This document shows positions 44,090 to 55,658 of a stretch of DNA of 64,000 nt, piece by piece. Position numbers and translations under genes: made by a program. The stretch comes from Pseudomonadota bacterium. GTDB taxonomy: Bacteria; Pseudomonadota; Alphaproteobacteria; Dongiales; Dongiaceae. Each line of letters begins with the position of its first letter. The first letter of the stretch is position 1. The notes beneath the pieces are model-generated. The model was not told where the DNA came from. It searched no databases and saw nothing but the letters and a program-made list of their open reading frames with translations. Location of the stretch: assembly GCA_021792365.1 (NCBI GenBank), contig JAJYUT010000002.1:310001-374000 (forward strand), given 5' to 3'.

Positions 44090-44917
44090 ATGAATGATCA
44101 GCCCTCACTTTTCCCAGCCGGCAAGGCCCTGTTCAGCCTGGCCGGCAAGGTATGTCTGATCACCGGCGGGGCGGGTCACCTGGGCACCGCCATGTCCACC
44201 GCCCTGGCGGAAGCGGGCGCGCATGTCTGCATCCTCGGACGGACACAGGCCGCGCTGGCGAAGCTGGCGGGAGACCTGACCGGCCGCGGCCTGTCGGCGG
44301 AGGCGGTCACCAGCGACGTCACCATGGCGGAGGACGTCAAGACCCTGATCGCCGATCTGGAGAAGCGCCACGGCCGTCTGGATGTGCTGGTTAACAACGC
44401 CTATGCGGGCCGTCCGGGCGTCATGCGAGACAGCAGGGCGAGCGACTACGTAAGCGCCGTGGAGATTGCGGTCGGCGCGGCGGCGGAACTGGTGAACGCC
44501 GCTCATGGTCTGTTGCGCAATGCCGTCCAGGCCAGTGGCGACGCCTCGGTCATCAACATCGCATCCATGTACGGCATGGTGAGCCCGGACCCGCGCATCT
44601 ACGGTCAGTCCGGCCTGAACAACCCGCCGCATTACGGCGCTGCCAAAGCGGCGCTCCTGCAATACACCCGCTATGCGGCCGTGCACCTGGCGCCGGAGGG
44701 CATCCGGGTCAACGCCGTCAGCCCCGGCGCTTTTCCGCCCGATGTGGTGCGACAGCGCGACCCGGCCTTTGCGGCGGCGTTGATCCAGAAGGTGCCGCTC
44801 GGCCGGCTGGGCAGGCCCGAAGACCTTGCGGGTGCGGTGCTCTTTCTCGCAAGCGCCGGGTCGCGCTTCGTCGCGGGCGCGAACCTGCCGGTGGATGGCG
44901 GCTGGACTGCGTGGTGA
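44090..44917 (+). CDS. Short-chain dehydrogenase/reductase of the nonulosonic acid locus
   Basis: This 275-residue SDR has the cofactor loop [11 protein letters not shown] (about 22-32), [10 protein letters not shown] and NIASMYG, and the catalytic YGAAK motif Tyr-X3-Lys, ending in [12 protein letters not shown]. It is close in type to PtmA-like SDRs of sialic-acid-like sugar clusters, where some members reduce or oxidise a late intermediate. It overlaps the next gene by four bases (GTGA), so it is the first gene of the long plus-strand glycan operon. Substrate unknown. Confidence 0.82.
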
Positions 44918-46569
44918 GCACGAAGCGTTCCCGCGTCGTCCTGCAGGCGCGCACGACCTCGAGCCGCCTGCCGGGCAAGGTTCTGTTGCCGGTCTGCGGC
45001 CTGCCCATCGTCGTGCTCGCGGCCAGGCGCGCCGCGCGCGACGGCCTCGAGACCATCGTCGCCACATCCAGCGACGCCAGCGACGATGCCCTGGCGGAAA
45101 CGCTGAGGGCCCACGGCGTGCGCTGCGTGCGCGGCCCACTGGACGATGTGCTGGCGCGCTATATCGCCGCGACGGCGGACCTCGAGGACAGCGACATCTG
45201 CGTGCGCCTCACCTCCGACAACGTGTTCCCTGACGCGGATTTCGTGCGCCGTTTGATCGCGGCGGCGGACACCGGCGGCACAGGCTATGCGGGCGTGGCC
45301 GGCGGCTCGGATGGCCTGCCCTACGGACTCGCCGGCGAAGCCATGCGGGTTGGTCTGCTGCGCCAGGCCGATCGCATCACGCGCGAGGCCCATGACCGCG
45401 AGCACGTCACGCCCTGGATCATCCGGCAGACCGGCCGGAATGCGCCGGCCATTCCGCGCGCCGGCGAACACGACCTTTCCAATCTGCGTTGCACCATCGA
45501 CACGTTGGACGATTATCGCAACGTAGCCGCCGCGCTGGCTGGGCTTGCCGATCCGGTGGCCACGCCCTGGCTGGCGCTGTGCGAGCGCCTGGCGCGCTGG
45601 GCGGAGCGCGCGCAGCCTTTCGTGCCGGCGCGGATCGTCGCCGGAGAGTTGCAGGCGGGCCTCGTCCTCGGCGGCGCCCAGTTCGGCATGATCTATGGCA
45701 TCGCCAACCGCGCCGGCAAGCCGAGCGACGAGGAATTGCACGCGATCATCGACCTGGCGGAGCGGCATGGCGTCACGCATCTCGACACCGCCGCCGGCTA
45801 TGGTGACAGCGAGCACCGGATCGGTTCGACCCTCGCGCCGGACAGCCCCCTTGCCATCGTCACCAAGCTGCCGGCCAACCTCCTGGACGGCCGCCCGCCC
45901 GCCCACGAGGCGGCGCAGCGGGTCCATGTCGCCATCGACCGGTCGCTGTGGCTCCTGGAGCGCTCGAGGCTGGAAGCGGTGTTGCTGCACCGGTTCGAGC
46001 ACTATGAGGGCTCGGAAGGGGCGGTCTGGCAGACCCTGCTGTCCCTGAAGGCGGAAGGCAAGGTCAGCCGGATCGGCGCCTCCGTCTACCGGCCGGAGGA
46101 CCTGATGACCCTGCTTGACGATCCACAGGTCGGGCTAGCGCAGATCCCGTTCAATATCCTCGACCGGCGCTGGCTCGCGCCAGAGGTCCAGCGCGCCATC
46201 GCGGCCCGCCCGGACGTGGTCCTGCACGGCCGCTCGGCACTGCTCCAGGGCCTGCTCGCCATGGATGATCCCGCGGCATGGCCGGTCGCCGGCCGCGACC
46301 TCGCCCAGCGCTGCATCGCCGCCTTGAAGGCGGCCACGGCGGCCCTGGGGCGCGAAAGCGTGGCTGACCTCTGCTTCGCCTATGCGCGTGCCCAGCCCTG
46401 GCTGGCGGGCATCGTGGTCGGGGCGGAGACGGCGGCCCAGATGGCGGAGAATATCCGCGTGTTCCGCGCCCCGGCCCTGACGGTGGACCAGGCCGCCACG
46501 GCCGTGTTGTCCATGCCGACCGGCCTGCCTGACGAATTGCTCAACCCGGCGCTGTGGCCGCGACGCTGA
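44914..46569 (+). CDS. SpsF-type cytidylyltransferase fused to an aldo/keto reductase
   Basis: This 551-residue protein is a fusion. Residues about 5-235 are an SpsF-family cytidylyltransferase: VVLQARTTSSRLPGKVLLPV, CVRGPLDDVLARY and VRLTSDNVFPDADF. Residues about 245-550 are an aldo/keto reductase: LVLGGAQFGMIYGIANR, THLDTAAGYGDSE and GASVYRPEDL. Domains of both kinds occur in nonulosonic acid clusters, usually as separate genes. The first could activate the final sugar as the CMP form, in place of PseF; the second is likely to reduce a keto-sugar. GTG 44914 overlaps the SDR stop. No PseF/NeuA-type gene was seen elsewhere in the window. Confidence 0.82.
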   Translation: MSTKRSRVVLQARTTSSRLPGKVLLPVCGLPIVVLAARRAARDGLETIVATSSDASDDALAETLRAHGVRCVRGPLDDVLARYIAATADLEDSDICVRLTSDNVFPDADFVRRLIAAADTGGTGYAGVAGGSDGLPYGLAGEAMRVGLLRQADRITREAHDREHVTPWIIRQTGRNAPAIPRAGEHDLSNLRCTIDTLDDYRNVAAALAGLADPVATPWLALCERLARWAERAQPFVPARIVAGELQAGLVLGGAQFGMIYGIANRAGKPSDEELHAIIDLAERHGVTHLDTAAGYGDSEHRIGSTLAPDSPLAIVTKLPANLLDGRPPAHEAAQRVHVAIDRSLWLLERSRLEAVLLHRFEHYEGSEGAVWQTLLSLKAEGKVSRIGASVYRPEDLMTLLDDPQVGLAQIPFNILDRRWLAPEVQRAIAARPDVVLHGRSALLQGLLAMDDPAAWPVAGRDLAQRCIAALKAATAALGRESVADLCFAYARAQPWLAGIVVGAETAAQMAENIRVFRAPALTVDQAATAVLSMPTGLPDELLNPALWPRR

Positions 46570-46742
46570 GCCGCTTTCCGGCAGCCCACAATCCTTCTCG
46601 ATCAAGGATTTATCTGGCGATGGCGCGGTCAAGCTGCTATCCACCGCTGGACAGATGGGCGGGGTAATATTATTGCAATGCGCGCGCCGGCATGGCGCTG
46701 TCAGCCTGACTCGGGCTCGGAAGATTGGTGGCACGGCACAGC

Positions 46743-54253: not shown

Positions 54254-54272
54254 GCGATCTCCATCTCTCCAG

Positions 54273-55658
54273 CTACCAGCGCCCGACCGCGCGGCGAATG
54301 CGGGTCGTGAGCGGCAATGAGCGCGGCGATATCAGCAGGACCTTGGTGCCGCACGTTTCGACCTTCAGTTCGGCGCTGTCCCCCAGAATCCGCCCGAACC
54401 GGGCGAGCCTGTCCGCAAGCGCGGCGAGATCGATCTCCGGGAACAGGTCTCCGCGCACATTCTTGTCGGCCTGGTGCCAGCGATATCCGGAGCGCGGCTG
54501 CCAAGCGCTGACATGGTCGGGAGCCGGCCGCCAGCCGCCTTGCGCATCGCCAAACTCCTCGATGGCCCCCATGATCTGCTCCGCGCCCAGGCGGGCGCTG
54601 TCGTAGGACATGCTGTTGCGGAAGCGCCCGATCATCTGGACATCATAGCAGGTGCCGGGCTCAGCCAGCAGCCGCCGGATCGCGGTCAAAGCTTCCGCCG
54701 TGGTTCTCGCCACCGGATTGACCAGCCTGGCGAGATATCGCTGGTTGGCCGGGCTGTCCGATGGCATGAGGCAGAGTGCGGGGCGATCGAGCGCAATCGC
54801 CTCCACGCCGGTCGTGCAATTGGTGTGAACGAGCAGCCGCGCCGCCATGATCCACGGCAGCGAGGAGCCCTCGCGCAGGATCGACAGGTTCCGGACGCCC
54901 TTCGTCCACGCCTCCCAGTTGGCGGCGATCTCGCTGGGATGCGGACGCAGCACGATCCGCAGGTCCGGAAACGCTTCCGCCAACGCGGGAAGCAACTCCA
55001 GCAGCGCCGCCCGATTGGCCTGTTCCATCACCTCGAAATCTGCGAACTGGCTCATCAGCTCCCGATCCGAGGGGTCGATCTTGCCCTGATCGATCAGCGC
55101 CTGGACCATGTGCTTCGCGTCGCCCTTGTGGGAGTTCGTGAAGCCGAGATTCGAGTTGATCAGGATGAAATCGCCGTGGCGCTGCCGCAGTTCTGCTGCC
55201 TCGTCCGCAAAGATGGTGCGGAGCTCGGGCCGCAGCAGGTCCCAGCGGGGGTTCGCCGCCTGCCTCACCCGCCCTTCGGGCAAGCCGAAGCTTTCGACGA
55301 AGGCGCTGGAGTTGAACGTGCCCGGCAGGAAGATGAGGTCCGTCGCATCGACCGCCGCGCGCGAAACCCACCAGAACTTCTTGTCATGCACGACCAGCCC
55401 GGGGATTTCCTCGTCTATCGCGGCAGTGATGTAGCCGGCCTCCTTGGCGCGCTTCAACATCTTGGCGTCGCGGACAGTCAGCGTCTTGGACAGATAGACG
55501 CCGGGCGTCATGCACTCGATGTTCCGTTCGATCAGCCATTTCTGGCCCAGCACCACTTCGAACCCGCGGGACGCCGCCATGGCCGTCAGCAGCAGGCGCG
55601 AATCCAGCTCGCGCGAGGCGATCTCCATCGGAAAGTAGATGATTCTGGCTGGCCTCAA
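54273..55658 (-). CDS. Surface carbohydrate biosynthesis protein (GT-B-like, putative glycosyltransferase)
   Basis: This protein of about 461 residues resembles the surface carbohydrate biosynthesis family, with a GT-B-like C-terminal half: VLRPHPSEIAANWEAW and VHTNCTTGVEAIALDRPAL (nucleotide-sugar-binding region, about 275-335), then SPANQRYLARLVNP. The N-terminus RIIYFPMEIASRELDSRLLL is the first strand. It could transfer the activated nonulosonic acid to a glycan or flagellin. TTG 55658 keeps the first strand; ATG 55628 would lose it. pseI follows 19 bases on. Confidence 0.7.
   Translation of the reverse strand: MRPARIIYFPMEIASRELDSRLLLTAMAASRGFEVVLGQKWLIERNIECMTPGVYLSKTLTVRDAKMLKRAKEAGYITAAIDEEIPGLVVHDKKFWWVSRAAVDATDLIFLPGTFNSSAFVESFGLPEGRVRQAANPRWDLLRPELRTIFADEAAELRQRHGDFILINSNLGFTNSHKGDAKHMVQALIDQGKIDPSDRELMSQFADFEVMEQANRAALLELLPALAEAFPDLRIVLRPHPSEIAANWEAWTKGVRNLSILREGSSLPWIMAARLLVHTNCTTGVEAIALDRPALCLMPSDSPANQRYLARLVNPVARTTAEALTAIRRLLAEPGTCYDVQMIGRFRNSMSYDSARLGAEQIMGAIEEFGDAQGGWRPAPDHVSAWQPRSGYRWHQADKNVRGDLFPEIDLAALADRLARFGRILGDSAELKVETCGTKVLLISPRSLPLTTRIRRAVGRW

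Follow-up and report, generated by a model that had tools for sequence, protein, structure and literature searches.

A pseudaminic acid-type operon in which a metallophosphoesterase and an ATP-grasp ligase may take the place of PseH

How does a bacterium complete pseudaminic acid (Pse), or a sugar related to it, when its operon lacks the acetyltransferase of the pathway? Surface nonulosonic acids matter in motility, as phage receptors and for immune recognition. The question is raised by an 11-gene locus (positions 44090 to 55658) in a 64,000-nucleotide stretch of DNA, here called the window, from a member of the alphaproteobacterial family Dongiaceae (GenBank assembly GCA_021792365.1, contig JAJYUT010000002.1, positions 310,001 to 374,000; host genome 5.43 Mb). 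An original prediction made from the sequence proposed a pseudaminic-type pathway whose final sugar is probably not plain Pse. Our analysis supports both claims. The locus is a real, conserved Pse-type operon of a variant kind, and its chemistry, as read from sequence, is a prediction. We estimate a probability of roughly 0.6 that the operon makes a CMP-activated Pse derivative by a PseH-less route, in which an ATP-grasp ligase (ATPG) would N-acylate the amino sugar with a free acid.

PseB, PseC, PseG and PseI were predicted to be recognisable, and they are. PseB, the inverting UDP-GlcNAc 4,6-dehydratase (46743..47738, plus strand; TIGR03589, 531.6 bits, cut-off 407.75), the aminotransferase PseC (47735..48892, plus strand; TIGR03588, 530.8 bits, cut-off 423.5) and the Pse synthase PseI (53198..54253, minus strand; TIGR03586, 494.1 bits, cut-off 340.25) all pass the curated NCBIfam cut-offs. 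The condition that would have refuted the prediction, a PseB/PseC pair of another pathway such as that of UDP-QuiNAc or bacillosamine, therefore does not apply. The PseG-like UDP-sugar hydrolase (52251..53201, plus strand) remains below its own cut-off (TIGR03590, 109.2 bits, cut-off 153.55). There is one match to the NeuB family in the whole genome. With these enzymes the locus resembles the canonical CMP-Pse pathway (PseB-C-H-G-I-F) of Helicobacter and Campylobacter. However, it lacks PseH and has a metallophosphoesterase (MPE) and ATPG instead, and its cytidylyltransferase is part of a fusion that is barely detected by the PseF model TIGR03584 (15.9 bits, cut-off 205.7). The absence of PseH and the fusion are both findings beyond the original prediction.

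PseH is described as a GNAT enzyme that moves an acetyl group from acetyl-CoA onto the C4 amino group (PMC4363471). No protein of the 11-gene locus matches PseH in searches with domain and family models and with a PseH model of our own. The best match in the host genome reaches 51.4 bits, against a TIGR03585 cut-off of 93.1, and no window-type Pse gene was found within the surrounding 19 kb. Between PseC and PseG, the plus strand instead encodes an S-adenosylmethionine-dependent methyltransferase (MT; 48904..49815; PF13489, 84.4 bits), an RmlD/GalE-type NAD-dependent short-chain dehydrogenase/reductase (SDR) with a YGRSK motif (EPI; 49812..50636; PF01370, 99 bits), MPE (50633..51325; PF12850, 98.1 bits, cut-off 27) and ATPG (51322..52254; PF15632, 42.9 bits, cut-off 29.1; PF02655, 28.2 bits, cut-off 23.2). 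These four genes had been predicted as additions to the Pse core. The genes are indeed present, but MPE and ATPG seem to replace a core step of the pathway, not to extend it. Together with the EpaA/EpaB-like first genes discussed below, the exchange argues for a product other than plain Pse.

By family model, MPE belongs to the calcineurin-like metallophosphoesterases, and ATPG belongs to the ATP-grasp superfamily by both family model and fold. In ATPG, K112, K145, E187, R206, E256, N258 and R260, presumably the positions that bind ATP and Mg, are invariant in 36 aligned sequences. Its AlphaFold2 model has a mean predicted local distance difference test (pLDDT) score of 95.5, and the nearest solved folds are 2pn1, PurK, PurT, an L-amino acid ligase and PylC. 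Most of these enzymes couple an activated carboxylate to an amine. ATPG scores 184.5 bits on NF009402 (PRK12767, "carbamoyl phosphate synthase-like"), which is below the cut-off of 218. In MPE, D8, H10, D36, N62, H63, H121 and H157 are invariant in 33 aligned sequences and H155 is kept in at least 90% of them; we take these residues to be metal ligands. The MPE model has a pLDDT of 98.0 and its nearest solved fold is SapH (3qfm). On TIGR00040 (YfcE phosphodiesterase), MPE scores 54.5 bits, just under the cut-off of 56.25.

A natural exchange within the genus shows where the pair sits. Genome G002 has the same left flank as the window, followed by the SDR, the fusion, PseB and PseC (82, 79/83, 91 and 85% amino acid identity). 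The DNA is 81% identical up to pseC, and homology ends at window position 48864, near the end of that gene. After pseC, the window and genome G003 continue with MT-EPI-MPE-ATPG-PseG-PseI-TIGR04396, whereas G002 continues with PseG (26% identity), a PseH over the cut-off (TIGR03585, 143.5 bits) and PseI (57%), with no MPE-ATPG pair. Given that homology restarts only at 60861, the further window genes up to that position are also absent from this place in G002. In a third genome of the genus, G001, the SDR and the fusion lie behind the same left flank, followed by a different gene (PseC, on the other strand) that is cut by the contig end. Taken together, these arrangements point to a locus that is mixed and matched downstream of a conserved first half.

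The same exchange is apparent in a wider comparison. An ATP-grasp alignment was used to scan a single genome of each species, and the best 80 of the 328 relatives were retained, a sample that is biased to close relatives. A module locus was defined by purpose-built profile models as having MPE (at least 100 bits), ATPG (at least 120) and PseI (over 300). PseH was called at 80 bits or more, with a model that started from loci L028 and L027 and was then iterated over loci of Alphaproteobacteria. By these definitions 69 of the 80 are module loci. In 68 of the 69, MPE and ATPG share a strand and lie no more than 250 bases apart, and ATPG lies equally close to PseI in 55. According to NCBI names, the module loci belong to Bacteroidota (36), Pseudomonadota (21), Bdellovibrionota (3), Bacillota (2) and six other phyla with one each (one of these loci is from an archaeal MAG, a metagenome-assembled genome, and may be misbinned), giving ten named phyla; one locus has no phylum. 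PseH occurs in only one module locus (L065), and the other 68 have no match even at an E-value of 1e-5.

For comparison we turned to 385 Alphaproteobacteria genomes, in which PseI exceeds the cut-off at 65 places, and used 60 of these; those left out were the window, G036 (identical to the already included L022), G114, G282 and G065. MPE has no match in any of the 60, and PseH is present in 43. The difference in PseH (1/69 versus 43/60) gives a Fisher p of 4e-19 if relatedness is ignored. Within Alphaproteobacteria alone, none of 11 module loci (counting the window) has PseH, versus 43 of 60 PseI loci. The 11 are the 15 alphaproteobacterial loci minus L041, L097, L037 and L032, in which MPE, PseG or a PseI above 300 bits is missing.

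Relatedness was addressed with a PseI tree built by FastTree from 134 rows (69 with the module, 46 with PseH, 1 with both). On this tree the module state changes at least 10 times. Among 7 independent pairs on supported branches, PseH changes in the opposite sense in 6.3 on average and in the same direction in none (median p 0.031, range 0.016-0.125). The comparative evidence that the module substitutes for PseH is good.

MT and EPI are less constant companions: homologues scoring over 200 bits occur in 33 and 7 of the 69 module loci, respectively. The nearest modelled gene upstream of MPE is EPI in 10 of the 80 loci and another SDR type (SDR228) in 38. By three models (PseH, GNATa, GNATb), 29 of the 69 module loci have PseG and no GNAT. 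Examples are compact loci in three phyla that hold PseB, PseC, a CMP-sugar synthetase, PseG and PseI but not PseH, namely in a MAG of Sideroxydans (L044), in Flaviramulus (L047) and in Nitrospira (L067). GNATa accompanies the module, but also adjoins PseH in six alphaproteobacterial loci (L112, L120, L121, L123, L129, L160), and therefore looks like a separate function. On TIGR03585, one representative each of GNATa and GNATb scores 44.6 and 28.9 bits, respectively, and the GNAT of L028 scores 106.1.

We propose the following pathway. PseB and PseC, whose families are clear, would convert UDP-GlcNAc to UDP-4-amino-4,6-dideoxy-AltNAc. In place of PseH and acetyl-CoA, ATPG would use ATP to activate a free carboxylic acid and join it to the 4-amino group, as suggested by its slot in the operon, its fold and the mutual exclusion with PseH. 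More tentatively than any other step, MPE might free this acid from a phosphorylated precursor. EPI and MT may tailor the acid, most likely to an O-methyl hydroxy acid, possibly glyceric acid or a similar one. PseG, assigned below its cut-off, would then take off UDP, and PseI would add pyruvate. Finally, the first SDR and the fusion, by their architectural match to EpaA/EpaB, would activate the sugar and invert C-8. The product would be an 8-epi-pseudaminic acid that bears an acyl group at N-7, is probably O-methylated and forms part of a surface glycan.

Several observations weigh against this proposal. Locus L065 has the module, PseG and PseH together, and 17 of the 60 alphaproteobacterial PseI loci have neither the module nor PseH. 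Some of these 17 are cut by contig ends or consist of PseI alone, and in three (L148, L149, L153) MT and a GNAT adjoin a distant ATP-grasp. L022, L027 and L028 combine a more distant ATP-grasp with PseH and lack MPE. The PseH model was built on alphaproteobacterial loci, so a divergent PseH in other phyla could escape it. The host genome has three CTP_transf_3 matches besides the fusion, so CMP activation could be the work of another enzyme. Co-inheritance of PseI and PseG with the module, as might be expected of adapted downstream enzymes, is unsupported. When L030, of the same genus as the window, is excluded, alphaproteobacterial module loci resemble module loci outside the class more than they resemble alphaproteobacterial PseH loci in 3/5 cases for PseB, 4/7 for PseC, 5/10 for PseG and 5/9 for PseI, and the window PseI is nearest to a PseH-type locus of its own family (72% identity to L150).

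The remaining difficulties concern MPE. Its nearest fold, SapH, is an Ap4A (nucleotide) hydrolase/phosphodiesterase and not an acid phosphatase. Moreover, in 17 of the 69 module loci GNATb is present and PseG is missing, a combination that the acylation scheme does not explain; these loci include L046, L073, L074, L085, L086, L089, L093, L096, L100, L105 and others in Bacteroidota. PseG over the cut-off was found in 0 of 14 genomes of this type, versus 6 of 6 genomes of the PseG type, although several of the genomes are MAGs whose completeness is unstated. In such loci MPE might be the enzyme that removes UDP, which would change its role. These observations favour an alternative in which MPE is a nucleotide-sugar hydrolase throughout, as a substitute for or helper of PseG, such that ATPG alone replaces PseH and no phosphorylated acid is involved. 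We consider this alternative rather unlikely, because the enzyme would be redundant in the window and in 47 of the 69 module loci, which hold both PseG and MPE, and because MPE is the neighbour of ATPG in 68 of the 69 and accompanies it even in a locus where no Pse genes were found (L033).

It is also possible, though unlikely, that the module decorates a Pse that is already acetylated by an unrelated or distant acetyltransferase encoded elsewhere, with ATPG, MT, EPI and MPE adding a further group. Campylobacter Pse does bear further decorations, distant ATP-grasps coexist with PseH in the three loci mentioned above, and GNAT-like proteins are encoded elsewhere in the host genome, the best being the 51.4-bit match. 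Against this stands the mutual exclusion of the module and PseH. Downstream of the pseC that both share, G002 has PseH and the window the module. No acetyltransferase is seen in the compact loci L044, L047 and L067, and the 19 kb surrounding the best host-genome GNAT (L023) yielded no window-type gene. A conventional operon for Pse5Ac7Ac or 8-epi-Pse5Ac7Ac that carries passenger genes would fit the typical PseB, PseC and PseI and the EpaA/EpaB-like genes, but is very unlikely given that PseH is missing, that MPE and ATPG recur with PseI in ten named phyla and that their active-site residues are kept in the 33 and 36 sequences aligned, respectively.

Two simpler arguments for the PseH-less route were set aside. 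An ATP-grasp alone as the substitute for PseH was rejected, since L022, L027 and L028 combine the two. The other appealed to the curated PseH cut-off, which none of 28 module genomes (representing 28 of the 80 loci) passes. It was dropped as uninformative, since only 4 of 64 alphaproteobacterial genomes (the 60 PseI genomes plus G036, G003, G001 and G002) pass this cut-off, which is thus too strict to establish genome-wide absence.

We tentatively extend the proposed route beyond the window, with somewhat more doubt than confidence. MPE and ATPG, with MT and SDR as optional partners, could form a CoA-independent acylation module that replaces PseH across about ten phyla and has been exchanged repeatedly, with MPE doubling as PseG in one Bacteroidota branch. 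This module could be the missing enzymology of N-hydroxyacyl (glyceroyl, O-methylglyceroyl and larger) nonulosonic acids.

Such sugars do exist, although none of the following precedents ties them to this module. The flagellin operon sfmABCDE of Shewanella oneidensis is described as encoding the ATP-grasp SfmE, the methyltransferase SfmD, the oxidoreductase SfmC and a NeuB-like synthase; its product is a 274 Da mono-N-acetyl Pse-like sugar with a nitrogen-free, O-methylated group of 236-264 Da, and deletion of the ATP-grasp gene SO_3265 reduced spreading with swimming retained (PMC3765264). The authors report no clear orthologues of PseH, PseG, PseI or PseF in that species (PMC3765264). As far as the published description allows a comparison, that operon and the window share an ATP-grasp, a methyltransferase and an oxidoreductase with a NeuB-like synthase, but the former has five genes and, unlike the window, no phosphoesterase. 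Tannerella forsythia ATCC 43037 carries Pse5Am7Gra, whose N-7 group is not acetyl (N-glyceroyl), and the candidate glyceroyl gene is said to be elusive (PMC6120980, PMC6388019). Its cluster is reported to contain PseH (PMC6120980), and in this it differs from the window. A di-O-methylglyceric acid derivative of Pse in Campylobacter jejuni is a chemical precedent. A 450.2 Da glycan is reported from Treponema denticola (PMC9481697). For this mass we considered a 3-deoxy-hexonate acid derived from 2-keto-3-deoxy-6-phosphogluconate as the putative acyl group (274.116 + 176.069 = 450.185). Among open-licence papers, we found none that mentions Pse together with a metallophosphoesterase and three that mention it together with an ATP-grasp. 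In the excerpted text of a 2026 paper on Clostridium Pse, N-acylation is assigned to PseH and the words "ligase" and "grasp" are absent (PMC13317340).

If the proposed route is correct, the MPE-ATPG pair, which occurs to the exclusion of PseH in many phyla, is a concrete candidate for the elusive acylation enzymology of T. forsythia, and the module would allow the side group and its mass to be predicted from genome sequence. The computed residue mass would be 362.133 with glyceroyl at N-7, 376.148 with O-methylglyceroyl and 390.164 with di-O-methylglyceroyl, compared with 316.127 for Pse5Ac7Ac. A locus with pseB, pseC and pseI cannot simply be annotated as a producer of Pse5Ac7Ac.

The first two genes suggest a further deviation from plain Pse. 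Gene 1 (44090..44917, plus strand) encodes an SDR oxidoreductase of 275 amino acids with a YGAAK motif (PF13561 adh_short_C2, 156.4 bits). Gene 2 (44911..46569, plus strand) encodes 552 amino acids in which a PseF/SpsF-type cytidylyltransferase (PF02348 CTP_transf_3, residues 9-173; 60.9 bits, cut-off 22.6) is fused to an aldo/keto reductase (AKR; PF00248 Aldo_ket_red, residues 251-528). The YxxxK residues of gene 1 are kept and are presumably catalytic. D292, Y297, K319 and H360 of gene 2, which we take to be the AKR catalytic tetrad, are invariant in 5 homologues. This architecture is the same as that published for Acinetobacter baumannii prophages, where EpaA (542 amino acids; CTP_transf_3 5-192, Aldo_ket_red 239-525) and EpaB (262 amino acids; an adh_short_C2 SDR) together were demonstrated by NMR to convert Pse5Ac7Ac to its 8-epimer (PMC12053666). 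The likeness is one of published description, and there are differences: the window pair opens a Pse operon, and its fusion is the only cytidylyltransferase of the locus. By analogy, the pair is predicted to yield the 8-epimer of Pse.

Of the genomes searched, all 4 from the genus and 6 of 17 from the family have the fusion (E-value at most 1e-60). Among plasmid records, 23 have some match to it and two, from Marinovum and Maritalea, match at least 80% of its length; in both, an SDR lies alongside and the region encodes a nonulosonic acid synthase. A search of phage records for EpaA itself gave no match. In viral contigs, 27 loci match the fusion, and the best segment of each lies within the cytidylyltransferase half. 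A similar fusion with a dehydrogenase is described in a Vibrio Pse cluster that has PseH, and the product was not investigated there (PMC7371886).

The layout of the locus largely follows the original prediction. Four-base overlaps join pseB/pseC, MT/EPI, EPI/MPE, MPE/ATPG and ATPG/PseG, as well as the convergent ends of PseG and PseI. Genes 1 and 2 overlap by 7 bases, or by 4 if gene 2 starts at the next GTG. The predicted gaps are confirmed, with 173 bases before pseB and 11 before MT. PseI and a GT-B-like gene were correctly placed on the other strand, and the latter is a TIGR04396 "surface carbohydrate biosynthesis protein" (54273..55658, minus strand, start codon uncertain; 260.4 bits, cut-off 125). 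A search of other genomes for the same gene order, as had been suggested, found all 11 genes kept in another species that belongs to the same genus (L020/L030, 78.8% DNA identity), so the arrangement is not due to chance. The host genome has two flagellin matches, both on another contig. No MAF flagellin glycosyltransferase was found in this genome with PF01973, a model whose four control-genome matches are all archaeal and which may not cover bacterial MAF.

Several loci show further gene combinations. In L065 (4463-7453) and many module loci, an AKR, an SpsF-type cytidylyltransferase and a glutamate-1-semialdehyde-aminotransferase-like gene occur beside the Pse genes (in 29, 36 and 35 loci, respectively). 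In L148, L149 and L153, a CMP-sugar synthetase, a strong MT homologue, GNATb and the distant ATP-grasp lie near PseI, and might represent another acylation module. A short contig titled as a Nanoarchaeota MAG (L055) carries MT-MPE-ATPG-PseI and could be a binning error.

Relatives of the module also occur in other settings. In a Rickettsiales MAG (L033, identical to L025; 8482-10915), EPI-MPE-ATPG stand alone amid genes read as housekeeping (guaA-like, guaB-like and others), and no Pse genes were found around them. In G001, of the same genus as the window, a diverged EPI, ATP-grasp and MPE (L021, 11876-14871) lie beside a sugar-acetyltransferase-like gene and aminotransferases, and adjoin genes whose translations read as flagellar hook proteins. 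These two trios would fit an acyl-transfer module that is able to serve different amino sugars. On pSymB of Sinorhizobium meliloti (L175, 8264-10934), an ATP-grasp that is 31% identical to the window ATPG is found in a polysaccharide/sulfation region, next to genes read as a PHP-type protein and an epimerase.

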